A stretch of DNA of 33,547 nucleotides from positions 1 to 33,547 of IMG/VR virus record IMGVR_UViG_3300030106_003611; one strand, given 5' to 3'. The DNA comes from a virus. The notes beneath the pieces were generated by a model, which worked only from the letters and a program-made list of their open reading frames with translations, was not told the DNA's origin and made no database searches. Shown here piece after piece: positions 2,924 through 33,371 of the stretch. Both the position numbers and the translations under genes were made by a program. The stretch's first letter is position 1. The number at the start of each line of letters is the position of its first letter.

Positions 2924-3306
2924 TGTGGCAAAGTTTAATTAATCCAATAGCCTCTGTAGTAGGAAGTTTTGTTGAGTCTAGAGTAGAGAAACAACGGGGC
3001 AAGACTAAAGTTGCTGTGGCTAAAGCAGAGGCTGAGGCAGAAGTCTATAAACAAACGTCTTTGCAGGAGGGCAATTGGGACAAGATTATGGCTGAAGGTA
3101 GTCGGCAGTCCCTTAAAGATGAGTGGCTTACTATTTTATTTTCTGTTCCTTTGATTCTTGCTTTTATTCCCGGAGCAGAGGGTATTGTTGAGAGTGGTTT
3201 TAGACAATTAGAAATGATGCCTACTTGGTATCAGTACAGTCTAGGTGTAATTGTAGCTGCCTCATTTGGTGTGAGAAGTGCAACTAAATTTTTTGGTAAA
3301 CGATGA
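2923..3306 (+). CDS. Holin (3-TM / gene-transfer-release type)
   Basis: 127 aa. The N-terminal 65 residues are an amphipathic Ala/Lys/Glu helix. Then come KDEWLTILFSVPLILAFIPG (about 66-85, hydrophobic), GFRQLEMMPTWYQ (about 93-106) and a second hydrophobic helix (YSLGVIVAASFGVRS, about 107-121). This architecture and the D-E-W and M-P-x-W-Y-Q motifs match the holin family known from gene transfer agents and many marine phages (PF11351-type). Holins permeabilise the inner membrane so that the endolysin reaches peptidoglycan. An M15 endolysin three genes downstream fits this. TAATG start coupling, ATGA at the end. Confidence 0.82.
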   Translation: MWQSLINPIASVVGSFVESRVEKQRGKTKVAVAKAEAEAEVYKQTSLQEGNWDKIMAEGSRQSLKDEWLTILFSVPLILAFIPGAEGIVESGFRQLEMMPTWYQYSLGVIVAASFGVRSATKFFGKR

Positions 3307-3521
3307 AAAAGAAAATACACGTAAATCAACACGTAATTCGTAGTAACTATAAAACAGGGGAAAGAAAACCTTGTCTTACAGTTAAAACGTATAAAACTAA
3401 TACCTACGCAAATGCAGTAGAAATTAAAGGGGCATCTAAAGTTATATACAGTCCTGATAAACCTTTACCGTGTGGGGCTAGGGTATGGATAGAAACTGAT
3501 GCTGAAGTTGTGACATTATGA
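3303..3521 (+). CDS. Hypothetical small protein
   Basis: 72 aa, unrecognised. Short beta-rich looking sequence, basic N-terminal half (MKKKIHVNQHVIRSNYK), ending in a WIETDAEVVTL strand. No signal peptide or TM. It is held between holin and a single-TM protein by 4-base ATGA overlaps on both sides, which argues it is translated. Its position within the lysis cassette is the only clue to function. Confidence 0.6.
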   Translation: MKKKIHVNQHVIRSNYKTGERKPCLTVKTYKTNTYANAVEIKGASKVIYSPDKPLPCGARVWIETDAEVVTL

Positions 3522-3931
3522 GTAGACAAATATTTGCTATTGGTATTTTAGCCATAATAATTACTCTTACTAGTTTTCTAGTTAACATAAAGGTAGAAGC
3601 AGATAAAGATATTAAGAATGAGTATTGTCAAGTTAGAGTCCAATTAGCTATGCATATATTTGATAGTATAAAAAGCGGATTACCCCTAGACCGTATAAAT
3701 GCAGCTTGGGGGACTCCTCCTATAAATGAAGCACATTCTAAGAGTAGAAATGCATGGTGGGAAAAATTAAAGTTAGAAGTAGATACATTAATGAAAGAAG
3801 GTAAACTATCCATACGTATCCAAGACATAGTAGCAGAGAGGTGTAAGGATATTCCAGTAGAACAATGTTGTTTAATAATGACTTATTACAAAAAAGATGG
3901 GAGGGTAATACTAGATGCAGTTGACACCTAA
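3518..3931 (+). CDS. Single-TM protein in lysis cassette
   Basis: 137 aa. An N-terminal hydrophobic helix (about residues 5-23) gives the layout of an N-in/C-out inner membrane protein or signal anchor. The following domain has cysteines (about C37, C109, C116, C117) and mixed helices. The gene sits directly before the endolysin and overlaps it by 17 bases, the place where phages often put an i-spanin (Rz-like). However, no lipoprotein partner and no long coiled coil typical of Rz can be seen, so a spanin role is only a possibility. ATGA overlap with the previous gene. Confidence 0.6.
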   Translation: MSRQIFAIGILAIIITLTSFLVNIKVEADKDIKNEYCQVRVQLAMHIFDSIKSGLPLDRINAAWGTPPINEAHSKSRNAWWEKLKLEVDTLMKEGKLSIRIQDIVAERCKDIPVEQCCLIMTYYKKDGRVILDAVDT

Positions 3932-18848: not shown

Positions 18849-19072
18849 TCTATTCTCCAAATGCGTAACCCTCTTACGTTATTTTCTAAAACTGTTTTGG
18901 ACGCTATTCGCACTCCAGCTTTTCTGGCTTTTTTGGCTATTTCATACAGTAAAGGGCGGCATTTACAACAAGGTAGGAAAAAACTAGTACCCACTTGAAA
19001 CGCCCACCAATCTATATGGACAGGCGTTCCCTCTAGGTTTAACCAAGATATTTTACTCGTCTTCTCCTTCAT
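18845..19072 (-). CDS. Conserved small protein at end of replication block
   Basis: 75 aa, unrecognised. Basic with three cysteines close together (FFLPCCKCRPLL, about 31-42), Trp-rich first half (IDWWAF) and a basic helical C-terminal half (EIAKKARKAGVRIASK). Its start overlaps the end of the primase-helicase gene by 20 bases and is preceded by AAGG. The Cys cluster could coordinate a metal with partners, but a fourth ligand is not obvious. It is the last gene of the minus-strand operon. Confidence 0.62.
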   Translation of the reverse strand: MKEKTSKISWLNLEGTPVHIDWWAFQVGTSFFLPCCKCRPLLYEIAKKARKAGVRIASKTVLENNVRGLRIWRID

Positions 19073-21911
19073 CCTTATCTACTGAATCTACCTTATCACT
19101 ATCCAAGATTAAACATGATACGGGTGGGGATTTTATATAACCCTTACCCAACCTAATATATTTCGGCTCTTTAAAACACACCCCGTTATTTCTCAAATTC
19201 TTAACCATAAACGTGTAGTCAATCTGTTTCTTACTACACCAATTACGTAACGATCTAGAGTTGATATATAACCTCTTCGTATCCGGTTCTTCTCTTATAA
19301 CTATATTAGCAGAAGGTTTATGTATAATGTCCGAGTCCTCAACCATAGTATCTCGCCTATCTACATCAGAGTTTAAAATTAATGTAGCGTTCAAATGCTC
19401 TGAAAGAAATATACCTAATGACTCTTCCGCAGTATTTACCATACCCTTTGGAGTGTTTTGTTGGCTTATAAGCTCTGCAAGTAACCACTCATAAGTGGAC
19501 TGAACATCAAATCTCCATAATCCTAGATCATTTCCTAGCTCTACACCTGTCATACCTATACCTGCCATAGCAACCCAGAAACGTTCCTTGTTTGTAAAGT
19601 CACCGTCTTTTCGTATCTGTCTAATCATACTCTGGACTCTTTCCTTACATTCCTCTGGATGTCCTATCATATACGGTACAATAACTTCTGCAGCCACTCC
19701 ATGATTTTCAAATAACTCATTTATAAGGTCACCATTTTCTTCATCACTTAAATTATTATCTTTAAATTCAAACTGCAGTAACCGCATCAACTCACCTTCA
19801 GGAGTTGCCTTCTCATAGGTAAGTAAATCAGTAATGCTTGAGTTAGCTGTAGTTATCGTCCCAGTATTCCAAAATATATTATTAATTCTTTCAGCATTCT
19901 CACTGCCTTTTAACCTGTTTATACCCTCTCCGTCTGATAATGTGTACACAAATTTAGAGGCTTCTTTAGGGTCTAGGTTAGTTATTTCGTCTATACATAA
20001 AGGAATGGATTGGTATATACCCAAGCGTTGCAACCAAGAGTTAGGTGTATCTGCTCCTTTCATCGCCAATCCTTTAGGATGCCCCCATATAGAATTTACA
20101 CTAAGTATCGTAGCACTTTTGCTTTTACCGCTACCATCTGAGCGTAAATGTAACAGCCCTCCATTCACATTGGTGTATTTAAACAAAGGACATGCAAGAC
20201 CAAATCCTAAAATAAACCTACGATATTCTTCACCCTCTCTAGCATATAATTTATTTATCGCCTGTTTCCATTTATCAAGTTCTCCTGCATAAGAAAACTT
20301 ATGAGCGTAACGGCTAAGTGTCATATTTTTAGGAGTAGGCTTACACCCCCCTGCCGTAAACTCTCTGTCTCCTAACACAAAAGACTGTGCATTATTGCCC
20401 CACCCCATTTGGTTATATGCTTTTGTTACTTTCTCTGTTTTCTCTAAATACTTTAACCAAGCGTTTAGGTATCCCACTATTTCTCCTTTCTGATCTTCTC
20501 TCTCAACTACAATTCCATATTTACTTAATACATCAAATTTAGATTTACCGTTCAGATCGGCAAAAGATATAGTAAAGTCTCTAGTGCCGTCTTTAGGTAA
20601 TTTAAAACGAATCTGTGCCAACATACCCTCTTCTGAATCCTCTAATCTTTTCTCCATAAATAAAGGATTGTCATATACACATTTAAATTGAGGTTTTTTG
20701 TTTTTAGCATCGGGGGGTTTTTCTATCCATATACCCTGTCCTTCTATATAACTATAAGGTTTTGGGGGAACCGGAATGTTGTACTCAATAACAGTTCCTA
20801 TTTTTTCTAAAGTATCTCGTACTAATATAGGTTTCTTTATCCCCTTTAATGTTTTTGCTAAAGCTATAGGACTGTTAATAGAATCCTTATATGCACACTT
20901 AACACATAATTCAGGGTTTAATGCTTCAAACTTCTTACATGTATGAGGTTTACCTTTAATATTTATTACTTTTTTCTTAGTTTCTTCAGGAGTGTAATCT
21001 GGATACCCCTCTGATAATTTTTTTATAGCCTCTTCTTTATCATCGCAATATAAAGCTATAGATAGTCCTGCAAACCACAAAGGTTCTGATTGATCTTTCG
21101 GGTTTTTAACTAAGTCATTAAGTTGGTTACACTTATTTACAGCAGTATTAAAATCATAATTTATATGTTCTGATGGTGTAAATATACTGTTATCTTCAGG
21201 GACTATATCTACAGGTTGTTCTACCTCTTCAACTTCTTCAACCTTACCTAAAATACTGTCCCAAAACTCATAAGTATGTGGGCCATCCCCCTCAGCAATA
21301 ACCCTAACTGGGACTTTGCCCCCCTTTTTATAGTTATGAGTGCCTACAATTCTCAACACTCTAGATGCATCTGTAGATACAACTGGGTCTATTACTAACC
21401 CGGCATTAATAAATAAAACTTTTAATCTACCAGCTAGTGATAACCACTGTTCTTTTTCTATTGGGGTTTCTAGACAGTAATGAATATGTATACCAGACCC
21501 AGAACCTACTATTAGTGGCATGGGTAAATCGTTATCTTCCACAACCCTTCTAAGTTCTTTAAGAGCTTCAGGCAATTCCGCATAAGAATTTTTAACTTTC
21601 CCTACATCTATATCATAAGATAAAGTGCTAAATCTACAAGCATTCTCTGCTATTCGTAAATTTCTTCTCTCCCCTTTTTTATATTTGTCGTATACTTCTT
21701 TCTTATAATCAGCTATAGCGTAGTACGTATCTATTCTTTTAGAGTCTAAATCCTCCGCTATCTTAGCAGCCTCAGCTATAGAAGAAGCCCAGTATTGATT
21801 GGAAATAGATTTTTTATCCCCTGTATGCTGTAAACTAAAAATACAGTATGAGTATTCACCATCTCCGTAATCATCGGGCAGTACAGTTTCTAAAAAATGT
21901 TTTGGGATCAT
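19053..21911 (-). CDS. Primase-helicase: AEP-like domain plus DUF927 ATPase
   Basis: 952 aa. Residues about 90-215 form an archaeo-eukaryotic primase-like domain: L-S-Y-D-I-D (acidic pair D100/D102), G-S-G-S-G-I-H-I-H-Y (136-145), and D-A-S-R-V-L-R-I-V-G-T (181-191). About 277-345 looks like a primase C-terminal helical domain with H323/C325/C336/C339, a possible zinc site. About 440-720 is a DUF927-type helicase ATPase: S-D-G-S-G-K-S (591-597, degenerate Walker A in which the first Gly is Arg590), and L-C-I-D-E (638-642, Walker B). It should prime and unwind at the fork. AGGGG precedes the ATG by a normal distance; a Cro-like regulator ends 9 bases upstream. A T7 gp4-like role is inferred, not a sequence match. 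Confidence 0.85.
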   Translation of the reverse strand: MIPKHFLETVLPDDYGDGEYSYCIFSLQHTGDKKSISNQYWASSIAEAAKIAEDLDSKRIDTYYAIADYKKEVYDKYKKGERRNLRIAENACRFSTLSYDIDVGKVKNSYAELPEALKELRRVVEDNDLPMPLIVGSGSGIHIHYCLETPIEKEQWLSLAGRLKVLFINAGLVIDPVVSTDASRVLRIVGTHNYKKGGKVPVRVIAEGDGPHTYEFWDSILGKVEEVEEVEQPVDIVPEDNSIFTPSEHINYDFNTAVNKCNQLNDLVKNPKDQSEPLWFAGLSIALYCDDKEEAIKKLSEGYPDYTPEETKKKVINIKGKPHTCKKFEALNPELCVKCAYKDSINSPIALAKTLKGIKKPILVRDTLEKIGTVIEYNIPVPPKPYSYIEGQGIWIEKPPDAKNKKPQFKCVYDNPLFMEKRLEDSEEGMLAQIRFKLPKDGTRDFTISFADLNGKSKFDVLSKYGIVVEREDQKGEIVGYLNAWLKYLEKTEKVTKAYNQMGWGNNAQSFVLGDREFTAGGCKPTPKNMTLSRYAHKFSYAGELDKWKQAINKLYAREGEEYRRFILGFGLACPLFKYTNVNGGLLHLRSDGSGKSKSATILSVNSIWGHPKGLAMKGADTPNSWLQRLGIYQSIPLCIDEITNLDPKEASKFVYTLSDGEGINRLKGSENAERINNIFWNTGTITTANSSITDLLTYEKATPEGELMRLLQFEFKDNNLSDEENGDLINELFENHGVAAEVIVPYMIGHPEECKERVQSMIRQIRKDGDFTNKERFWVAMAGIGMTGVELGNDLGLWRFDVQSTYEWLLAELISQQNTPKGMVNTAEESLGIFLSEHLNATLILNSDVDRRDTMVEDSDIIHKPSANIVIREEPDTKRLYINSRSLRNWCSKKQIDYTFMVKNLRNNGVCFKEPKYIRLGKGYIKSPPVSCLILDSDKVDSVDKDEGEDE

Positions 21912-24237: not shown

Positions 24238-25788
24238 TTATAATTCTTTATACAAACGTACAATATTGGAATGTACATCTATCTTACTTTGCAACATGCT
24301 GTATATTCGTCTTTCTACCTCACTACCTTCTAAATGAACTACAGTAACAGGATTCTTTTGCCCTGCTCTATGGGCTCTAGCATTACATTGTAGGTATGTC
24401 TCTACAGACATAACAGGCGACCAGTACACTATAGTATCCGCCCTGTGCAGGGTTACTCCATGTGATGCAGACTGTGGTTGTATGACCAATACTCTAGGAT
24501 CGTCAGCGTCTTGAAACCTTCTAAATATATTTGTACGTTTAACAGCACTCACATCCCCATTTATAACTTCACAAGTAATCCCCGATTTATTTAAATGTTC
24601 CGATACAGTTAGTATAGCGTGTCTATATGGTACAAAAATAAGTAGTTTATGGGATGACTCCTGTATTATTTCATCTAATATCTTTATTCGTGTAGAAGCA
24701 TCAAAGTTTATTATCTCGCCCTCGTCTGAATAAACAGCCCCACCAGATAATTGTAGTAACTTATTCATTGCGGCAGCGGCATTAACCATTGTTATATCTT
24801 CCCCTGCAGCGTTAACTATAAGTCGTTGTTTCATCAACTTATAATACTTATTCTGTTGAGGGGTCAATGGCACTGATCTAGTCGTATAAGTAATATCTGG
24901 TAAGTCCAAACACTCCTCTTTTGTATATCTAATCGCAGGTTGAAGCACTTTATGGACTAATTTTTTAGCCTCAGGTCTAGGTACATACTTAAACTGTGTG
25001 ACCTTACGCATTACCATTTCTCGCCATCTACCCAAAAATCTAGGTACATTTGTAGGGTTAACTAATTTAGCTAACCCGTAAGCATCTACAGGGCTTTGAG
25101 ATGCAGGTGTACCTGTAAGCATCCATAATCTTGTATCGGCAGCAATTAAACTATTGAGAACTTTCCACCTATTCGTAGCTACATTCTTGTATGCGTTAGC
25201 TTCGTCTACCACAATCAAGTCAAATCCACCGTTTTTTATTTCGTCTTTTACTATCTCTACTCCGTCATAATTAATAATTACAAATTCAGCCCCAGACTTA
25301 ATAATATCTGCTCTTTTGTTTTGTCTCCCATGACAAACTGCCGCTGTTCTGTGCATAGCACATGCAAATAAATCATCAAGCCAAGCAGATTGCATAATAG
25401 ATAGTGGGCATATAACTAATACTCTGTTGACTAACCTTAGCTTCATTAGATAGTCAGCCGCCCAAATAACAGATGCAGTCTTACCTGTACCCTGTTCGTT
25501 AAAGCAACAAGCCTTTTTATGTAGCGTAAGGAATGAAGATGTTTCAATCTGATGGTCAAAAGGTTTAAATTTACCCGACCACTCATAGTTAGTTTTTATA
25601 GGTGAAGGGACATTCTGAACACCTATCTCGGTAAGTTTTTGAGATTCTTTTATACCCCAGTGGACTAAAACCTCACTAATACCCTTATCATTAGCTTTCT
25701 TTAATAGTTTAGATTTAGTTATAGAATCCAACAAAACAGCGGGGTTTCTAACTCGTAACAATAATGCTTTATTTTGTATTATGTCCAT
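24238..25788 (-). CDS. SNF2-like DEAD/DEAH helicase
   Basis: 516 aa, complete. Helicase motifs in order: Q-G-T-G-K-T (99-104, Walker A), V-L-V-I-C-P (123-128, Ia), D-E-A-N (195-198, DEAx), L-T-G-T-P (224-228, III), I-F-V-P-Y-R (384-389, IV), Q-P-Q-S-A-S-H-G-V-T-L (437-447, V), Q-C-N-A-R-A-H-R-A-G-Q (467-477, VI). The order and the R-A-H-R-x-G-Q motif are diagnostic of SNF2-family translocases. It moves on dsDNA with ATP; in phages it is thought to aid recombination or fork processing. AGGAGA lies 5 bases before the ATG. It overlaps the EndoVII gene by 20 bases. Confidence 0.93.
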   Translation of the reverse strand: MDIIQNKALLLRVRNPAVLLDSITKSKLLKKANDKGISEVLVHWGIKESQKLTEIGVQNVPSPIKTNYEWSGKFKPFDHQIETSSFLTLHKKACCFNEQGTGKTASVIWAADYLMKLRLVNRVLVICPLSIMQSAWLDDLFACAMHRTAAVCHGRQNKRADIIKSGAEFVIINYDGVEIVKDEIKNGGFDLIVVDEANAYKNVATNRWKVLNSLIAADTRLWMLTGTPASQSPVDAYGLAKLVNPTNVPRFLGRWREMVMRKVTQFKYVPRPEAKKLVHKVLQPAIRYTKEECLDLPDITYTTRSVPLTPQQNKYYKLMKQRLIVNAAGEDITMVNAAAAMNKLLQLSGGAVYSDEGEIINFDASTRIKILDEIIQESSHKLLIFVPYRHAILTVSEHLNKSGITCEVINGDVSAVKRTNIFRRFQDADDPRVLVIQPQSASHGVTLHRADTIVYWSPVMSVETYLQCNARAHRAGQKNPVTVVHLEGSEVERRIYSMLQSKIDVHSNIVRLYKEL

Positions 25789-26086
25789 GCACTCTCCTAA
25801 GATATTCTGACGCTTTTTTCAATATTTTTATATTATCTTTAAAACAACCTAAACCATTATTGCATCTATCACAAATCAAACCCCTTATTATATTTGTTTT
25901 ATGGCAATGGTCTACAACTAATTTTGCTACTTCACCGCATATAGGACACATGCTGTTACACTCGGATACTCTCCGATCATATTCTTCCTTACTCATACCA
26001 TACCTCCTAAAACGATCATACCCTGTTCTTTTTCTATACTCCTTACCGTAGTCAAGACGTTTCTTACGGTTTCTATAAGGACTCAT
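25769..26086 (-). CDS. Recombination endonuclease VII-like
   Basis: 105 aa. Zinc and catalytic pattern of T4 endonuclease VII: C47-P-I-C50, D59-H-C-H62, then C72-D-R-C75-N-N. The helix after it (FKDNIKILKKASEYL) matches the family. It resolves four-way junctions and branched DNA before packaging. T4 EndoVII is 157 aa, so this is a compact version lacking most of the dimerisation region. ATGA overlap with the HNH gene upstream. Confidence 0.92.
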   Translation of the reverse strand: MSPYRNRKKRLDYGKEYRKRTGYDRFRRYGMSKEEYDRRVSECNSMCPICGEVAKLVVDHCHKTNIIRGLICDRCNNGLGCFKDNIKILKKASEYLRRVHGHNTK

Positions 26087-26346
26087 GCAGGTTTATGATT
26101 TGATTTTCTCTTAAACGATCTATTTTTATTTACTGAAGTTAATTTAACATTTGATTTCTTAGCACTACCACCTTTAGATAATGGAACTACGTGATGTAAA
26201 TCTTTACCTTTTCTAGATGAATATCCGTTCTTTTTATCCCACTCTCGCCTAGCTCTCTGACGTTTCATTCTATTATCATGTTCACCCCTAGCCAATTGCT
26301 GTTGGTATTCTTTTTTATAGGGTCTTGGTTTATTTACATACGGCAT
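26083..26346 (-). CDS. Small HNH-type nuclease domain protein
   Basis: 87 aa, very basic. Core: D-L-H-H-V-V-P-L-S-K-G-G (49-60), then S-N-V-K-L-T-S-V-N-K-N-R-S-F (65-78), matching the His-His, Gly and Asn positions of HNH nucleases. The Cys pairs of the zinc-binding HNH type are absent. The basic N-terminus suits DNA binding. Such small HNH genes occur near phage replication genes either as free-standing homing endonucleases or as working nucleases. It directly abuts the Cas4-like gene (TAA then ATG) and overlaps EndoVII by ATGA. Confidence 0.78.
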   Translation of the reverse strand: MPYVNKPRPYKKEYQQQLARGEHDNRMKRQRARREWDKKNGYSSRKGKDLHHVVPLSKGGSAKKSNVKLTSVNKNRSFKRKSNHKPA

Positions 26347-27018
26347 TTATATTCTTTCGTTGTATTCACAAGAGATAACTGGACACCACCCTCTACAAGT
26401 AAAATTTTCTCTAGCATTCCATACGTCATTTACATAGCAAGTATTTAGTATATCAATCTCATCTCTCCATTTTACCCATAAATCGTCCTGTTCGTCACTA
26501 GAATATTTAGCTTTTATTAGAGCTTTTTTAACTAAAAAAAGAAGTCCTGCTTTTACCTCGGTAACAAAAGGATAGTGTTTAAATACAGCTAAAGACATAA
26601 GCTCTAATTGATCTGTGTCAGCCCTGTCAGGATGCTTACCTGTTTTATAATCAATAATAACAGCTTTATCTTTTTGGATTATTAATAAATCTACTATACC
26701 TCTATACCAAACATCTTTAGCATAAAAAGAACAAGGCTCTAAATCTTTTGTTACCCCTAATTTTTCTTCGCAAAGAACTTCTCCCTTAAAGCTCTCCAAT
26801 ATAGCATCCACAGATTTCTTTATATACTCAAAAGGTTTTGGTATTTCTACATTATTTTTTACATACTCTTCTGCAGCCTTATGAACCCTATTACCGTAAA
26901 TCAAGGCTCTTGATCGAGGCTCCTTAATATCTTTAGCCACTCTAAGATGGTAATACTTTCTTGGGCATTGCTTAAACAAACTTAGACTACTGTAAGACCA
27001 ACTATTCGCATTCGCCAT
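26347..27018 (-). CDS. PD-(D/E)XK exonuclease, Cas4/RecB-like
   Basis: 223 aa from ATG 27018; an upstream in-frame ATG at 27042 exists, but GGAAG sits 5 bases before 27018 and the N-terminus (MANANSWSYSSLSLFKQCPR) is then normal. Catalytic set: H46 in G-N-R-V-H-K, D110 in G-I-V-D, D123-Y-K125 in A-V-I-I-D-Y-K-T-G. Cysteines C18 (F-K-Q-C-P-R-K) and C208, C212, C217 near the C-terminus have the arrangement of Cas4/AddB 4Fe-4S nucleases. It probably degrades DNA ends in recombination or host DNA breakdown, like a T7 gp6 replacement. Overlaps the polymerase 3' end by 17 bases. Confidence 0.85.
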   Translation of the reverse strand: MANANSWSYSSLSLFKQCPRKYYHLRVAKDIKEPRSRALIYGNRVHKAAEEYVKNNVEIPKPFEYIKKSVDAILESFKGEVLCEEKLGVTKDLEPCSFYAKDVWYRGIVDLLIIQKDKAVIIDYKTGKHPDRADTDQLELMSLAVFKHYPFVTEVKAGLLFLVKKALIKAKYSSDEQDDLWVKWRDEIDILNTCYVNDVWNARENFTCRGWCPVISCEYNERI

Positions 27019-28888
27019 AACTTCTTCCCACTCCTGACTCACAATCCAATGGTAATCCTTCGGCCCACTTAGGGGTACATCTCATACAGGATTCAATATA
27101 ATCAAGTGCGGGTGATACTTCATCGTTTCTGACTACACATATAACAGAATCATGGACAGTTAATACCACCCGGTATTTTTTAGCTATCTGTAGCATCTGT
27201 TCACCTATGATGCACCTAGCTATTCCTTGTGTTATATTTTCAACTGCTTTAGCTCCGTATATGTATGTGTCTCCTGTACGTGATTTGTATATATAATCCC
27301 CTGTAGTAACTTCCACTGGTTCCTTACCCTCAACTTCTTTTAATATAACTTTCTGTTTTAATTCAGGGTATTGTATACGTAAACTACTCGGAAGCACAAA
27401 TGAAGAATCCCTCCACAACAATTTAGGAGTGTGGGAACTGGTGGTTTTTTCAGAAAAAACAGGCCAACGACCCTCTGGATTTTTACCACTAACCATGCCT
27501 TTTATAGCTATATCCATTTTGCCCCAAAACTGTTTTATCTTAGAATTACTCGTCCTATAGGTCTCAATGACATCTTGAGCAAATTCTTCATCAATACTTA
27601 CACCCTGAGCCTGAATAAACTTCTGAAATTTACTATACCCCATACCATAGCCACAACCCAAAATTACAGACTTACCTATAAACCTTTCCTCTTTAGATAT
27701 ATCCTTTACTTCTTTTTTATATATCTTTGATGCCATGATCTTATAGACATCTTCCTGCTTTCTAAATGACTCTACCAAATCCTCTTGCCCTGCAAGCCAA
27801 GCCAATGTCCTAGCTTCAATCTGTGAAGAATCAGTATTAATTATCATATAGCCCTTAGGAGCCACAATAGACTTCTTCAGAGCATTAGCATCTGTACCTC
27901 TACTAGGTAAATTCTGTAGATTAATTTTATCTGACCCACCCCATCGTGTGGTATGAGCCGCACAATATCTAAGGGGGATTGGTAGCGTACCTCTACCAGC
28001 AATATCAATAAATCTCTGTGTTCTAGTTTCCTCCAGTGTAGACTTAACTCCCATACGAGCCGCCACAACTGTTTGCACTCTTACATCATGATGTTCCTGT
28101 AGTTCTTTAAACGCTTCATCAGCCTTAGCAAATGCAAAAGTCTCTTTACCTGTACGTGGGGATATTTTTGTGGGAGGAGTAACTCCTAGTTCTTTTAACA
28201 CTTCTGCAAACTTAGGATTACTCATTAACGAATCTTTATCGTAACCACTACTCTGTAACAGCTTTTCTTTTTTATTCGTAACGTCCTCTAAGTGTTTAAG
28301 TAACAAAGATTTGTTTAGCCTTAATTGTGGTTTCACAAACATTCTTAGAGTTAAATCAATTAACTTCAACTCTGAATCGGGAAAATCTTTATTTAAAACA
28401 TCATATGCTTTTTTGGTAAGTTCCACATCATTTATACAATATTTAGAATACCTGCTTAAAAAATCATCATCAAAGTCTTTTAATCTTAAACCTTTAGCCT
28501 CTAATACTTCTTTACCTTTTACGCCAACCTTTAAATCTTTAACTAAAGAATCTAGAGAATGACTAACGTGAGCCCCACGTATAGCTCTAGACATACACAA
28601 AGTATCAAGTAAAAAATGGGGAATAATGTTGAACCGCCAAGACAATATTGCGGCATCAAACATACAATTATGTGCTAGGACAGCACAATTAGATAAGTTA
28701 AATGAAGTTAAAAATTTATATATTTTATTAAAGTCACCAGTACACCATACAGGCGTATCTTGATTAACTTTAACGGCTACCCCGATAACTTCAAATCGGG
28801 AATCCCTTATATATTCTTCAGTAGTCATTTTACTAAGAGAATACTTAGGGTCGTAGTAAGTCTCAAAATCTAAGGTTATTATATCCAT
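27002..28888 (-). CDS. polA: DNA polymerase, family A, with 3'-5' exonuclease
   Basis: 628 aa. Exonuclease (DEDDy): D7/E9 in L-D-F-E-T, D78 in L-A-H-N-C-M-F-D, and Y150-C-I-N-D154. Polymerase: motif A D353-S-S-Q-I-E-A-R; motif B R402-x3-K406-x3-L410-x3-Y414-G; motif C V-H579-D580-S. The residue equivalent to E. coli Phe762 is Leu410, the class said in virioplankton studies to mark slower or temperate-type replication. The 5'-3' exonuclease domain of cellular PolI is missing, which is normal in phages. No Shine-Dalgarno is visible before the ATG; a 16-base palindrome sits 17-32 bases upstream. It replicates the phage genome with the primase-helicase and SSB of the same operon. Confidence 0.96.
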   Translation of the reverse strand: MDIITLDFETYYDPKYSLSKMTTEEYIRDSRFEVIGVAVKVNQDTPVWCTGDFNKIYKFLTSFNLSNCAVLAHNCMFDAAILSWRFNIIPHFLLDTLCMSRAIRGAHVSHSLDSLVKDLKVGVKGKEVLEAKGLRLKDFDDDFLSRYSKYCINDVELTKKAYDVLNKDFPDSELKLIDLTLRMFVKPQLRLNKSLLLKHLEDVTNKKEKLLQSSGYDKDSLMSNPKFAEVLKELGVTPPTKISPRTGKETFAFAKADEAFKELQEHHDVRVQTVVAARMGVKSTLEETRTQRFIDIAGRGTLPIPLRYCAAHTTRWGGSDKINLQNLPSRGTDANALKKSIVAPKGYMIINTDSSQIEARTLAWLAGQEDLVESFRKQEDVYKIMASKIYKKEVKDISKEERFIGKSVILGCGYGMGYSKFQKFIQAQGVSIDEEFAQDVIETYRTSNSKIKQFWGKMDIAIKGMVSGKNPEGRWPVFSEKTTSSHTPKLLWRDSSFVLPSSLRIQYPELKQKVILKEVEGKEPVEVTTGDYIYKSRTGDTYIYGAKAVENITQGIARCIIGEQMLQIAKKYRVVLTVHDSVICVVRNDEVSPALDYIESCMRCTPKWAEGLPLDCESGVGRSYGECE

Positions 28889-28904
28889 GATACAAAATAT
28901 TTAT

Positions 28905-28920
28905 TGTCCCTATAGGGACA
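28905..28920 (-). promoter_or_regulatory. 16-base perfect palindrome before polA
   Basis: TGTCCCTATAGGGACA is identical on both strands. In minus-strand RNA it can fold to a 6-bp stem with a UAUA tetraloop, covering the VRR-NUC stop (28910-28912) and ending 16 bases before the polymerase ATG. No T-run follows, so it is not a standard terminator. It may act as an RNA operator or protein-binding site at the polymerase start. Confidence 0.6.
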
Positions 28921-29200
28921 GCTTATTTAATAACTCTTGCACCGCTAAGATATTGTTTTCGTTAATTACTAGCGTGTGCCCTCCTATTGCTTCAATCTCA
29001 TCTAAATTTTTTTGTTGTAACTCTGTAGGTTTCTTCTTACCGACCTTGCATTCAATACCTACAAACTTACCATTGTAACACACAATTATGTCAGGTACAC
29101 CTGATTTACCATATCCATTCATAATGGGCGAGAAATAATAAGCACCGTTTTTACGCAGTACTTTATAAACTTGGTGTTTTATCTTCGCTTCTGGTGTCAT
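28910..29200 (-). CDS. VRR-NUC domain nuclease
   Basis: 96 aa, a single-domain VRR-NUC (PD-(D/E)XK superfamily) protein. Catalytic residues: D37 in G-V-P-D-I-I-V, then E50-C-K52 in V-G-I-E-C-K-V-G, and P-T-E-L-Q-Q (58-63), the family's conserved Gln. Length is typical of stand-alone phage VRR-NUC proteins, which cut branched DNA or act as accessory nucleases near polymerase genes. Its 5' end overlaps the small gene at 29163-29339 by 38 bases. Assignment is firm; substrate is inference. Confidence 0.93.
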   Translation of the reverse strand: MTPEAKIKHQVYKVLRKNGAYYFSPIMNGYGKSGVPDIIVCYNGKFVGIECKVGKKKPTELQQKNLDEIEAIGGHTLVINENNILAVQELLNKLSL

Positions 29201-29339
29201 CTATAACCCACCAACTTAGAGCCATTTCAAGTCTTTGATAATCTAAATTTACTAACTTGTGTATTGTTTTATAACCGTGAGAGGAATCCTTAGACGACTC
29301 TCCGGTTATAAACACTTCTTCCTCGTAAAACGGTTTCAT
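29163..29339 (-). CDS. Small hypothetical protein (58 aa)
   Basis: 58 aa, found by reading the gap between the VRR-NUC and the 59-aa gene. Starts MKPFYEEEVFITGESS and ends DKTPSL; an acidic first third, then a helical LDYQRLEMALSWWVI segment. Its ATG (29339) overlaps the stop of the tiny membrane protein by ATGA, and AGAAG lies 5-6 bases upstream. It overlaps the VRR-NUC start by 38 bases. The tight coupling supports it, although overlap of two coding frames makes this less certain than its neighbours. Function unknown. Confidence 0.55.
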   Translation of the reverse strand: MKPFYEEEVFITGESSKDSSHGYKTIHKLVNLDYQRLEMALSWWVIDDTRSEDKTPSL

Positions 29340-29452
29340 ACAACTTCTAATATACCTCTAACTATTTCTACCAATATAGGCGTACACGCCATAGCAACAA
29401 ATAAACAAACCCATAGCCAAAAAGCAAAATGATTTAATTTAGTGTAAAACAC
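29336..29452 (-). CDS. Tiny single-TM protein (38 aa)
   Basis: 38 aa from GTG 29452. The translation is MFYTKLNHFAFWLWVCLFVA followed by MACTPILVEIVRGILEVV. Residues about 9-30 form one hydrophobic helix, so a small membrane peptide is expected. An excellent ribosome site (AAAGGGGGATAATC before the GTG) sits inside the 3' end of the preceding gene, and the stop overlaps the next ATG by ATGA. Its size and TM nature match phage small membrane effectors such as inhibitors of host envelope functions or superinfection exclusion peptides, but no family is recognised. Confidence 0.6.
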   Translation of the reverse strand: MFYTKLNHFAFWLWVCLFVAMACTPILVEIVRGILEVV

Positions 29453-29618
29453 GATTATCCCCCTTTTCGTCCGTATCGGCTAACATAATTAGTAATGTAG
29501 CTATCTCTGTATGGGCATTTTTTACCGCCTCAGAGAAAACTGCTTTATCTCTTTCAGAAGGTAACTCTTCATATATAACATCGAGAATACTTAATACTAT
29601 ATCTTTATCTAGACTCAT
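29439..29618 (-). CDS. Hypothetical acidic helical protein
   Basis: 59 aa using ATG 29618, which overlaps the stop of the upstream 325-aa gene by ATGA; an ATG 13 codons further upstream lies inside that gene and is less likely. Sequence is helical and acidic: DIVLSILDVIYEELPSERD, then KNAHTEIATLLIMLADTD. No motif recognised. The next gene begins inside its last codons, so the group is translated as a unit. Confidence 0.6.
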   Translation of the reverse strand: MSLDKDIVLSILDVIYEELPSERDKAVFSEAVKNAHTEIATLLIMLADTDEKGDNRVLH

Positions 29619-30592
29619 TCTTGAACCCAATTTTGTTCGACAGCCTTTTGATGCCACAGTCTGTATTTATCACTAGTTCTCGTAGGGAATTGCCCCCGAT
29701 CAGACGAACCATCTGCTCTCTGGCCGATCTTAACTTCCTCTATAATAATACGAGCATAATATTTATATATAACATTCCGTAACATAGCGGCTATTACTTT
29801 AGGTCGTTTACTTACATATCCCATTTGACCCCAAGATTCTAACGCATTAGTTACAAATTGGGAATGTAGATCAAAAGCCTCAGGATTTGCTAGTGCAGGG
29901 ATTATATCTTCGTGCATAGATAAAGCCCTGTTTATACAATCTTCATCCACTACAGTTTCCCCCCACCTATACCTATCTTTAAGTTGCATAAACGCAGTAG
30001 CTGTTTTTATGTAGTCAAACAACCCACGATATTTTTGTGTTATCACACGTTTTTTATCATTATTAACAACCCAGTTTAAACCTGTACCTGCATTTAAACA
30101 TTCTCTGTCACCATCAAAATGCCACCTTGTCCCATCATTAGGTGCAAAATAAACATTATGTTTAATATCATTATTATATTCAGTATGACGATACACTACA
30201 GGTTGCATACCCCATGTCCACCCTAAATACATATTACGCCCCAATATGTGGTGCACCATATGGCATACTTTATTATTAAAATCAGGTTGACCATGTATAA
30301 TACGAAAGCCTATTTTTAAACCCTCATCCCTTCGGAAAGATAGTATGGGTTGATTTACCCCTGCAAAACATTTTATAGCGTGTGCCATAGGAGGGGTTTC
30401 TAGATAGATGTTAATATCTCCTGTGTGTTCATCTTTCTGCATAAACTGCCATACATCGGCCCGCCTAGCAAGAGGTACTAAGCCTTTATATTTTCCTCTA
30501 GTTATAGGTTTTACGGATTCATAGTATTCCACTGCATCTATATATTTACGTAATACTGGGTAATGATTAAAATTTATTTGTCCAAACGCCAT
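29615..30592 (-). CDS. Large unknown phage protein
   Basis: 325 aa, no family recognised. Soluble looking, rich in aromatics and His: Y-Y-E-S-V-K-P-I-T-R-G-K-Y-K-G (23-37), G-R-N-M-Y-L-G-W-T-W-G-M-Q-P (118-131), W-H-F-D-G-D-R-E-C (157-165). Several His residues in the middle (e.g. CHMVHHILG, 109-117) might bind metal, but no known active site is visible. GGAGAATATC precedes the ATG. It is one of two long unknown genes that precede the nuclease/polymerase genes in the transcript, a common place for phage early or host-takeover genes. Confidence 0.7.
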   Translation of the reverse strand: MAFGQINFNHYPVLRKYIDAVEYYESVKPITRGKYKGLVPLARRADVWQFMQKDEHTGDINIYLETPPMAHAIKCFAGVNQPILSFRRDEGLKIGFRIIHGQPDFNNKVCHMVHHILGRNMYLGWTWGMQPVVYRHTEYNNDIKHNVYFAPNDGTRWHFDGDRECLNAGTGLNWVVNNDKKRVITQKYRGLFDYIKTATAFMQLKDRYRWGETVVDEDCINRALSMHEDIIPALANPEAFDLHSQFVTNALESWGQMGYVSKRPKVIAAMLRNVIYKYYARIIIEEVKIGQRADGSSDRGQFPTRTSDKYRLWHQKAVEQNWVQE

Positions 30593-30601
30593 GATATTCT
30601 C

Positions 30602-30847
30602 CTATATGTTTATTGATATGTGATAAATAGTTTCGGTATCTCTTGAACCGATTCCGTATACTTCAGTACCTACTTCAGCTATAGCAAGTAGTGAATACTT
30701 ACGCATAACTTCATGAGGTAGTTCATCCTCCTGTCTAAGTTCTCGCACCTCCTTTCCCATCACGCCCGTATAATCCCAAAATTCAATACCATCAGGCTTA
30801 ACCTCTAGCCTTATTGGTTGATAACCTAAACCCATAGCCCTACTCAT
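30602..30847 (-). CDS. Hypothetical small protein
   Basis: 81 aa, unrecognised. Beta-rich start (QPIRLEVKPDGIEFWDYTG, 10-28), acidic middle (ELRQEDELPHE) and a C-terminal strand pair ending SINI. It overlaps the preceding 314-aa gene by 8 bases and lies 9 bases before the 325-aa gene, so all three are likely co-translated. Confidence 0.62.
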   Translation of the reverse strand: MSRAMGLGYQPIRLEVKPDGIEFWDYTGVMGKEVRELRQEDELPHEVMRKYSLLAIAEVGTEVYGIGSRDTETIYHISINI

Positions 30848-31784
30848 CGAGGATAACCCACCATCTATTTGGCTTTTCCTTCATGCCTGTACCCTCGAAA
30901 TACTTACTTTCAGTTACTTTAACTAAGTTGTTAGCTATATCCATATCCATACCCATATCTATAACCGACATCCGATCAGAGATAATTTCTGGCATGCGTT
31001 CCTCGGAAACTCCTTCACATATTGTCTCTGGATTCTGTAGGTTTCCGAATAGCTTTATACTATCAGTGCCTGTTTTTAGAGTAGCCCTTGTAACCGTGTA
31101 TCTATCTGTAATTACATTTTTAAAGACATGATAAATTGCAGGACTCCACGCTCTTGCTTTTTCATTATTTTCGTAATGTGTATAGTATCTATCAAAAGCT
31201 TCTTTGAATGTATCAGTTACAGGTTTATACCCATGTTGTATCATGTTATGTACTTCTTTTACATCTATTTGGGTGTTGTAATAGCTCTCTCCGTTTAGTC
31301 TACTATGCATTACTCTTTTATGGTCATTCAAGTAAGATATAAATCTTGCGTGTCCTTTAGCAGTGTAACTTTCTGTAAACTGTTCATGCACTTTTAAGTT
31401 CTTTAACACTTTTATAATTGCTTTAATATTTGTAGACTTCTTTTCACTACCTTTTAGTTTAATGTCTTTATGACTGATACCATAATACGTCTTATTAGAA
31501 CTACTAGAATCTATCCATCTTTTCCCTTGATTACTCATTCTAGCTAGTGATGTATATGGATCACGCTTATCTGCAATATTAAGTTGATTCGTAGTCGTAT
31601 AATTTATTTCTCCGCTATGAGTCAGACGATATCCTGTTTTAGTAAAAGATAAACATAATCTAGGGAAACAACATATAACTTCTCGTGCTAAATCCCTCAT
31701 ACCATCTCTTATCGTATCCCCTTGTTTGTCTATATCCTCCAAGCTACGCATACATATAAATTCTGTTTCTTTAGTTCTTGTCAT
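30840..31784 (-). CDS. Large unknown phage protein
   Basis: 314 aa, no domain recognised. Basic in the middle (SHKDIKLKGSEKKSTNIKAI, about 103-122), with several Tyr-rich patches (ESYYNTQID, FDRYYTHYEN) and an acidic/Met-rich helix near the end (MSVIDMGMDMDIANN). GGAGAGTAATC precedes the ATG. No TM or signal peptide. With the 325-aa protein it forms a pair of unknown genes typical of phage early regions; it could interact with host proteins, but that is only positional inference. Confidence 0.68.
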   Translation of the reverse strand: MTRTKETEFICMRSLEDIDKQGDTIRDGMRDLAREVICCFPRLCLSFTKTGYRLTHSGEINYTTTNQLNIADKRDPYTSLARMSNQGKRWIDSSSSNKTYYGISHKDIKLKGSEKKSTNIKAIIKVLKNLKVHEQFTESYTAKGHARFISYLNDHKRVMHSRLNGESYYNTQIDVKEVHNMIQHGYKPVTDTFKEAFDRYYTHYENNEKARAWSPAIYHVFKNVITDRYTVTRATLKTGTDSIKLFGNLQNPETICEGVSEERMPEIISDRMSVIDMGMDMDIANNLVKVTESKYFEGTGMKEKPNRWWVILDE

Positions 31785-32282: not shown

Positions 32283-32480
32283 TTATTCACCAAATTTAAT
32301 TGGATCAATATTTTTGGTTTTTCTAAGATGCTGATACTCGATGTCTGCTTTGTAAAGATTAATCTTTTTACCTGCTATATTTGCAAAACTATCGGCATCT
32401 GCCCTTTTCAATGCACCTGATCGAAGATCAGCCCATACTTCATCTAATTTTGCGTGTAGTGCTTCTGTAGGTTTACTCAT
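32283..32480 (-). CDS. Conserved small phage protein
   Basis: 65 aa, helical: EALHAKLDEVWADLRSGALK (6-25), FANIAGKKINLYKADIEYQH (32-51), short acidic end. I recall similar proteins (with the DLRSG.. and A-N-I-A-G-K patterns) in phages and prophages without function. ATGA overlap with the repeat protein upstream; GGAGATAACATC precedes the ATG. Confidence 0.66.
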   Translation of the reverse strand: MSKPTEALHAKLDEVWADLRSGALKRADADSFANIAGKKINLYKADIEYQHLRKTKNIDPIKFGE

Positions 32481-32908
32481 GATGTTATCTCCTGTTGGTT
32501 TTTAATAAATCGTTTAATTTTAACTAATGTTACATATGCTTCTACTAACTCTTTTGGAACCTCCTCTCTTGGTATAAGACATCTTCTTTTAAAATTTCGT
32601 CTAATTGTCTGATCTAATATTTTATCTCTATTCTCCTCACGATATTTTTTATCGTATGTTTTATTCTCCTCACGATATTTTTTAAGGTATGCTTTTTTCT
32701 TTTCTCTATTCTCCTCATAATGTTTTTTACCGTATGCTTTTCTCTTTTCTCTATTCTCCTCACGATATTTTTTAAAGTATGCTTTATTCTCCTCACGATA
32801 TTTTTTATAGTATGCTTTATTCTCCTCACGATATTTTTTAAAGTATGCTTTTCTCTTTTCTCTATTCTCCTCATTATATTTTTTAGAGTATGCTTTTCTA
32901 TCAAACAT
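32477..32908 (-). CDS. Repeat protein, paralogue A (15/11-residue units)
   Basis: 143 aa from ATG 32908 (GTG 32911 is in frame but too close to AGGGGG). After MFDRKAYS come seven units at 9-101: KKYNEENREKRKAYF-type 15-mers at units 1, 4, 5 and 7, and KKYREENKAYY-type 11-mers at units 2, 3 and 6. The 11-mers lack four residues (REKR). The C-terminal tail (NFKRRCLIPREEVPKELVEA..) is shared with the neighbour. Rich in Lys, Glu and Tyr, it should form a long helix or coiled coil. Function unknown; it may be a structural or nucleic-acid-binding early protein. The same C-terminal flavour occurs in small marine phage proteins near HNH genes, but I cannot confirm a family. Confidence 0.7.
   Translation of the reverse strand: MFDRKAYSKKYNEENREKRKAYFKKYREENKAYYKKYREENKAYFKKYREENREKRKAYGKKHYEENREKKKAYLKKYREENKTYDKKYREENRDKILDQTIRRNFKRRCLIPREEVPKELVEAYVTLVKIKRFIKNQQEITS
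32492..32564. repeat. 73-base direct repeat, copy 1
   Basis: Encodes the shared C-terminal tail of paralogue A. It matches 32919-32991 at about 69 of 73 positions with no gaps (offset 427 bases), evidence for recent tandem duplication. Confidence 0.85.
32606..32884 (-). repeat. Coding tandem repeats, 45- and 33-base units
   Basis: Seven imperfect units encoding residues 9-101 of paralogue A. On the plus strand each shows a TCTCCTCACGATATTTTTTA-like core with variations. Four units are 45 bases and three are 33, the latter missing 12 in-frame bases. Confidence 0.88.
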
Positions 32909-33371
32909 CACTCACCCCCTGTTGGTTTTTAATAAATCGTTTAATTTTAGCTAATTGTACATATGCTTCTACTAACTCTTTTGGAATCTCCTTTTTTGGC
33001 GTATTAAATGTTCCTTTAAAATATCGTTTGGTTTTCTGATCTAATAGTTTATCTCTATTCTCTTCATGATATTTTTTATCGTATGCTTTTTTATTTTCTC
33101 TATTCTCCTCCCAATATTTTTTATGTTTTGCTTTTACCTTTTCCCCATTCTCCTCACGATATTTTTTATTTAGTGCTTTTACCTTTTCTCTATTCTCCTC
33201 ATAATATTTTTTATCGTATGCTTTTTTCTTTTCTCTATTCTCCTCATCATATTTTTTCCTGTATGCTTCTATCTTTTCTTTGTTCTCCTCACGATATTTT
33301 TTCTTACATGCTTTTACTTTTTCTTTATTTTCTTCACGATATTTTTTAAAGTATGCTTTTCTATCAAACAT
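32901..33371 (-). CDS. Repeat protein, paralogue B (seven 15-residue units)
   Basis: 156 aa from ATG 33371, whose A is shared with the upstream gene's TGA. After MFDRKAYF come seven 15-residue units at 9-113, for example KKYREENKEKIEAYR and KKYDEENREKKKAYD. Then a tail (KRYFKGTFNTPKKEIPKELV..IKRFIKNQQ) matches paralogue A. The ribosome site AAGGGGG sits 6 bases before the ATG and is the same in both copies. Unlike A, every unit is 15 long. Likely a duplication of A or vice versa. Expected to be highly helical; function unknown. Confidence 0.7.
   Translation of the reverse strand: MFDRKAYFKKYREENKEKVKACKKKYREENKEKIEAYRKKYDEENREKKKAYDKKYYEENREKVKALNKKYREENGEKVKAKHKKYWEENRENKKAYDKKYHEENRDKLLDQKTKRYFKGTFNTPKKEIPKELVEAYVQLAKIKRFIKNQQGVSDV
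32919..32991. repeat. 73-base direct repeat, copy 2
   Basis: The second copy encodes the C-terminal tail of paralogue B. Four differences from copy 1 were counted by eye, clustered near the middle and one near the end. Confidence 0.85.
33033..33347 (-). repeat. Coding tandem repeats, seven 45-base units
   Basis: Seven 45-base imperfect units encoding residues 9-113 of paralogue B. Unit length is constant, unlike the neighbouring array. All units keep the reading frame; variation is mostly at positions encoding the fourth and eighth residues of each unit. Confidence 0.88.

Follow-up and report, generated by a model that had tools for sequence, protein, structure and literature searches.

Organization of the locus

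The window, i.e. the whole stretch of DNA analyzed here, is a virus record of 33,547 bases that is assigned to a tailed phage by its genes for a family A DNA polymerase, a primase/helicase, and nucleases. The primase/helicase-like product (952 amino acids; 19053-21911, minus strand) is 27.7% identical to its best relative from a cultured phage (Pseudomonas phage Rollin). The features under study are two neighboring repeat genes and a small partner gene:

32901..33371, minus strand: gene 1 (protein P0002, 156 amino acids), seven 15-residue units followed by a C-terminal hairpin (translation, helix prediction)
33045..33359, minus strand: repeat array of gene 1 (amino acids 5-109), 7 x 15 residues, net charge about +15
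32910..33056, minus strand: predicted C-terminal helical hairpin of gene 1 (amino acids 106-154; AlphaFold on the full protein and on the domain alone, alignment)
32477..32908, minus strand: gene 2 (protein P0001, 143 amino acids), units of 15, 11, 11, 15, 15, 11, and 15 residues followed by a C-terminal hairpin (translation, spacings)
32618..32896, minus strand: repeat array of gene 2 (amino acids 5-97), net charge about +18, with 11-residue units that lack codons 12-15
32483..32629, minus strand: predicted C-terminal helical hairpin of gene 2 (alignment, hmmsearch)
32283..32480, minus strand: partner gene (65 amino acids), with a 4-nt overlap between its start and the stop of gene 2

Genes 1 and 2 overlap by 8 nt, and both related phages likewise have the partner gene after their repeat gene(s). 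The arrays, built on the unit consensus KAYxKKYxEENxEKx, reach scores of up to 435 in Tandem Repeats Finder (reporting threshold 50) and are far beyond chance. Upstream of the first unit both proteins carry MFDR alone, and with zero Cys pairs a zinc ribbon is absent from P0001 and P0002; both finish in a kindred stretch, PKELVEAYVxLxKIKRFIKNQQ. Because the period of the repeat DNA is a multiple of three, further open reading frames arise as by-products; one at 32614-32904 in a different frame and those on the plus strand facing the arrays were dismissed on this ground.

The initial annotation had described two adjacent seven-unit genes, one composed of 15-residue units throughout and the other with three 11-residue units, and translation and spacings bear out both place and composition. 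It had further derived the short units from an in-frame loss of four residues. The shorter unit indeed equals the longer one minus exactly codons 12-15 (xEKx), i.e. 12 nt, whereas the direction, loss rather than gain, can be inferred only, since 15 is the commoner length. An 11-residue unit also occurs in the matching gene (L063b) of one of the two related phages. The gene overlaps, a C-terminal hairpin of about 45 residues shared by both proteins, a hypervariable residue 4 in the unit, and the wide distribution of the repeat lie outside that annotation.

The repeat in phage nucleases

Relatives were collected with a degenerate DNA pattern that covers one unit and returned 72 stretches of viral contigs, and with a profile-based search, which added 80 further loci; counts from a second degenerate pattern refer to the matches listed. 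As its confirmation relied on a query with 15-residue spacing, the profile search may favor this length, a bias from which the pattern searches are free. The matches listed hold 163 non-redundant repeat proteins, nearly all on viral contigs, and the pattern is rare in cellular genomes (16 stretches in 84,980 species genomes). The usual order in most of these proteins is a zinc ribbon, the repeats, and then an HNH, endonuclease VII (EndoVII), or GIY-YIG domain. By motif count at least 92 of the 163 non-redundant proteins listed are HNH/EndoVII-like and at least 5 GIY-YIG-like, figures that are lower bounds, several uncounted proteins being nuclease-like by eye.

The charged 15-residue repeat of the window proteins matches that of phage endonucleases by PHROG comparison, tblastn, and the unit profile; the PHROG matches are driven by the repeat only, and two of them are labeled endonuclease. 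The same 15/11/19-residue unit, in sequence and spacing, is found in phage HNH/EndoVII/GIY-YIG proteins (e.g. L004, L038, L144, and protein P0010 of MW202615). These possess a nuclease domain and frequently an N-terminal zinc ribbon, whereas the window proteins have neither and terminate in the hairpin. For P0001 and P0002, Pfam gave no match past a cut-off and NCBIfam none at all, and only the hairpin follows the repeats. The link between the window proteins and the nucleases is one of shared modules only. The view that these genes represent the least described protein type of the window is not supported in the sense of a separate class, since HNH, EndoVII, and GIY-YIG proteins of phages commonly contain the repeat. 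A search of the full-text literature, including one by sequence motifs, found no paper on the repeat.

Names given to such proteins vary. Corynebacterium phage PSonyx gp78 (L303, 487-1038) is annotated as an HNH endonuclease, with the HNH motif not seen; it combines a zinc ribbon with the same repeats and with a C-terminal portion that by eye resembles a Myb-type DNA-binding domain. A protein of MW202615 (L304, 466-1158) is annotated as 'ring-infected erythrocyte surface antigen', a name that probably stems from its charged repeats, and ends with the HNH motif HVDHIIPL. The window itself harbors, downstream of a Cas4-like gene, two adjoining small genes on the minus strand (25769-26086 and 26083-26346); one product falls in the endonuclease VII family (PF02945, E 1e-18), the other is an HNH-like protein of 87 amino acids.

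Quantized unit lengths

Unit lengths in relatives had been expected to follow steps rather than to scatter, and this is what was found: spacings of 15, 11, 19, and 7 or 8 residues prevail, and those of 12-14 and 16-18 hardly ever occur. In a first sample of 112 non-redundant proteins, scored with a unit profile built on this same sample and with proteins taken as independent once near-duplicates were removed, spacings of 15 (464), 11 (50), 19 (19), and 7 or 8 (15) were counted, next to single-digit numbers at 12 (1), 13 (3), 14 (0), 16 (0), 17 (3), and 18 (0). A second viral sample (49 new proteins among the matches listed, same fixed profile) yielded 15 (158), 11 (42), 19 (10), and 7/8 (12), with five spacings in total at 12-14 or 16-18. 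The four residues are lost at two sites, either xEKx (window, L003, L006, L045) or K[KE]Yx (most others), and therefore the short unit is not one inherited variant.

Mutational slippage as the sole cause is ruled out for the preference of four over three residues. Short direct repeats able to seed slippage are present at 0.32 per context for 9 nt and 0.44 for 12 nt, and despite this similar supply a 4-residue shortening occurs in 66 proteins vs. a 3-residue shortening in 3 (P ~1e-12). The 3-residue step is excluded by selection, not by mutational supply alone, which agrees with the earlier proposal that 12-base changes preserve the register: they are tolerated better than 9-base changes, beyond what supply provides. 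Since supply also favors steps of 4, 7, 8, and 11 over 1, 2, 5, and 6 residues, the pattern may in part be mutational.

A right-handed stripe on a predicted helix

AlphaFold models the full P0002 (alignment of five rows, mean pLDDT 84.5) as one helix of 101 residues (4-104) followed by the hairpin, so that the rod suggested by the initial annotation is predicted as helical and not as a disordered chain; AlphaFold tends to render charged repeats as helix. Aromatic and aliphatic residues form a stripe. Its periodicity peak lies at 96.0 degrees per residue for gene 1 and at 96.5 for gene 2 rather than at 100, a signal reached by none of 500 shuffles. The 96-degree peak is present in 52 of 81 relatives. 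Across relatives each unit has one position that is 97% aromatic, one that is 92% Asn, one that is 75% aliphatic, and a mixed fourth stripe position.

With a turn of 96 degrees per residue, gaining or losing 4 residues rotates the stripe by 24 degrees, 7 or 8 by 48, 3 by 72, 1 by 96, and 2 by 168 degrees. Among small indels the 4-residue step is thus the least costly, and the observed frequencies follow roughly this order. These data support the idea of a conserved register with the right-handed stripe as reference and the 11-residue units as a tolerated perturbation. Near-straight and right-handed geometries had both been considered. The right-handed one (15/4) fits the stripe in both proteins, whereas a straight helix is disfavored, because it would prefer 18 over 19 residues and would not split four from three so sharply; its ideal spacing of 18 is almost absent.

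The stripe gives weight to the main rival of the reading preferred below, namely a right-handed coiled-coil scaffold in which the paralogues would assemble into parallel homo- or hetero-oligomers via the Tyr-Asn-Ile stripe and would serve as a protein-protein spacer that makes no contact with nucleic acids. The window proteins share the 96-degree periodicity of right-handed coiled coils with 11- and 15-residue periods, the stripe spacing of 4-4-4-3 is that needed for a pentadecad (4-4-3 in the 11-residue unit), and overlapping tandem pairs of hairpin-type genes occur in four lineages of contigs (window, L063, L026, L031). However, a nearly invariant Asn at one of the four stripe positions and a hypervariable neighbor position would make a poor classical core, several relatives (L039, L003, L084) have a single gene only, and neither the strong positive charge nor the company of nucleases is accounted for. 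We consider this scaffold unlikely.

Arrays are net positive in 94 of 94 measured relatives, with a mean of +2.3 per 15 amino acids. Compared with shuffles, the arrays show no enrichment of opposite charges at i/i+4 (mean z in relatives -0.6 for i+4 and 1.7 for i+3; z 0.5-1.7 per offset for P0001/P0002). An ion-pair ladder behind the 4-residue rule is thereby ruled out, and the stability of an isolated helix is not guaranteed. The same result, together with the clear amphipathic stripe, speaks against a charge-stabilized single alpha-helix in the role of an inert spacer, a reading which the very high Lys/Arg/Glu content and the predicted uninterrupted helix would suit and which we hold to be highly improbable.

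The predicted C-terminal hairpin and a branch devoid of nuclease domains

The C-terminal domain of about 45 residues is predicted as a helical hairpin (AlphaFold, 14 sequences, mean pLDDT 85.4). The window proteins display the branch signature, an L-D-Y ... IP-x-EL-x-E ... KR hairpin, and belong to a smaller, nuclease-less branch that carries the hairpin where the nuclease would be. The hairpin profile matches two proteins outside its training set (hmmsearch), QIG62331.1 (E 4e-7) and L187 (E 1.7e-5). Neither for the repeat nor for the hairpin did the PDB give a significant match by sequence or by fold (Foldseek), i.e. no solved homologue, and the best BFVD match was an unnamed protein with an E of 0.08.

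Some hairpin homologues possess N-terminal zinc fingers (L005, L084, and P0008 of Tenacibaculum phage JQ). The last of these, the hypothetical protein QIG62331.1, is encoded near an endonuclease VII gene; its C-terminal hairpin is homologous to that of the window proteins, but an N-terminal zinc ribbon and a short charged linker stand where those have repeats. The zinc ribbon of P0008, here combined with the hairpin, matches the ribbons that annotated HNH and EndoVII proteins from cultured phages carry. Repeat, zinc ribbon, nuclease, and hairpin therefore behave as exchangeable modules.

Cassette exchange and sequence evolution

The genomic position of the three genes differs between phages. 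In the window and in G001 (L166), repeat genes and partner lie upstream of the polymerase among other early genes, and in G002 (L167) between the polymerase and a Cas4-like gene; they span 32283-33371 in the window, 353-1684 in G002, and 3048-3643 in G001. Between the window and G002, core genes are near synonymous saturation (dS above 1), whereas the cassette genes show a dS of 0.10-0.43 and were therefore exchanged more recently. Judged from these comparisons, the repeat genes and the small downstream gene represent a mobile cassette. Compared with G001, early genes at about 28.9-32.1 kb of the window (27002-31784 compared with L166) have a dS of 0.13-0.37 vs. about 1 for the DNA polymerase, which points to mosaic exchange within the early region.

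The dN/dS of the repeat genes ranges from about 0.4 to 1.9 and is mostly near 1, and most control genes range from 0.06 to 0.5. Values of 0.9-1.9 in the window-type genes of lowest dS, the absence of nuclease and zinc domains, and the horizontal exchange would be expected of decaying relics, i.e. former homing-type endonucleases that lost the nuclease domain and persist as functionless passengers of a mobile cassette. Against such decay stand the intact frames of five genes, which have up to 13 units and are spread over three phages, the 97% aromatic Tyr position and the 92% Asn position across relatives, selection against 3-residue indels, and the retention of the hairpin in distant phages; it appears rather improbable.

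Residue 4 of the unit, located before KKY, is hypervariable: in 38 units it takes 14 different amino acids, encoded by 17 codons, and its change rate is at least 4.7x that of flanking synonymous sites. In gene 2 this codon reads TCT, TTT, TAT, TTT, GGT, CTT, and GAT, its third base always being T, within an almost invariant stretch of 33 nt. In window-type genes the third base has 9 changes at 5 sites vs. 33 at 10 sites for the first two bases, roughly half the rate, and in 16 other genes 39 changes at 16 sites vs. 81 at 32. Diversifying selection on codon 4 is not established, and a mere lack of constraint is possible, because the third base changes often too.

This bears on two further explanations. 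Early host-takeover or anti-defense proteins engaged in an arms race could present one variable residue per unit to a host target, as would fit the accessory position in an early operon, the high dN, the hypervariable residue 4, and the exchange between phages. We regard this as improbable: PADLOC has no family for P0001 or P0002 and named families gave no match, dN/dS over the whole gene does not significantly exceed 1 (p at least 0.055), and the difference between base positions of codon 4 is too small to establish diversifying selection. Very little credence is given to a recognition or measuring rod with a near-invariant 15/11 scaffold and a single free residue in each unit (position 4, in part also 8), which would be reprogrammed unit by unit, adjusted in length by units and 4-residue steps, and exchanged as a cassette.

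A putative DNA-associated rod

The reading that we favor, tentatively and at a probability of roughly 0.4, is that of a DNA-associated basic helical rod that descends from homing-type nucleases or works alongside them. The repeat module is mostly a part of phage homing-type endonucleases; here it occurs without zinc ribbon or nuclease domain, and the hairpin stands in for the nuclease. Each 15-residue unit would set three residues, one aromatic, one Asn, and one aliphatic, on a right-handed stripe of 96 degrees per residue; a stripe rich in Lys/Arg would run alongside. It is supposed that the hydrophobic stripe most likely packs on another chain, be it the paralogue or a further copy of the same protein, or on some other partner, that the basic stripe runs along nucleic acid, and that the hairpin provides a second contact. 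Units may be gained or lost whole or altered by 4-residue steps, because such changes disturb the stripe least, and the gene pair together with the small downstream gene may travel between phages as an early-operon cassette.

By analogy, the rod could act as a DNA-bound spacer or tether, as does the KER helix of yeast CAF-1. In the part of the source considered, KER is reported as a long, net-positive single helix rich in Lys, Glu, and Arg that binds DNA and is proposed as a spacer setting distances, and another single helix tested there did not bind DNA, so that binding is not a general trait of such helices (PMC10335832). The predicted window rods share the length, the richness in Lys, Glu, and Arg, and the net positive charge, and the two are likened by these features and not by sequence homology; DNA binding was shown for KER, whereas for the rods it is inferred, and a tandem 15-residue unit is not described for KER in that part of the source, unlike in the window rods (PMC10335832).

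Implications

The length rule, i.e. 15 residues, plus or minus 4, rarely 7 or 8, and almost never 1 to 3, constitutes a testable geometric prediction. The repeat is found in very many phage nuclease genes, and the nuclease-less branch presents the rod alone, which makes the role of the repeat for phage homing-type nucleases directly testable. If the rods bind DNA, phages would own a simple DNA-bound spacer of adjustable length, similar in principle to that of CAF-1.
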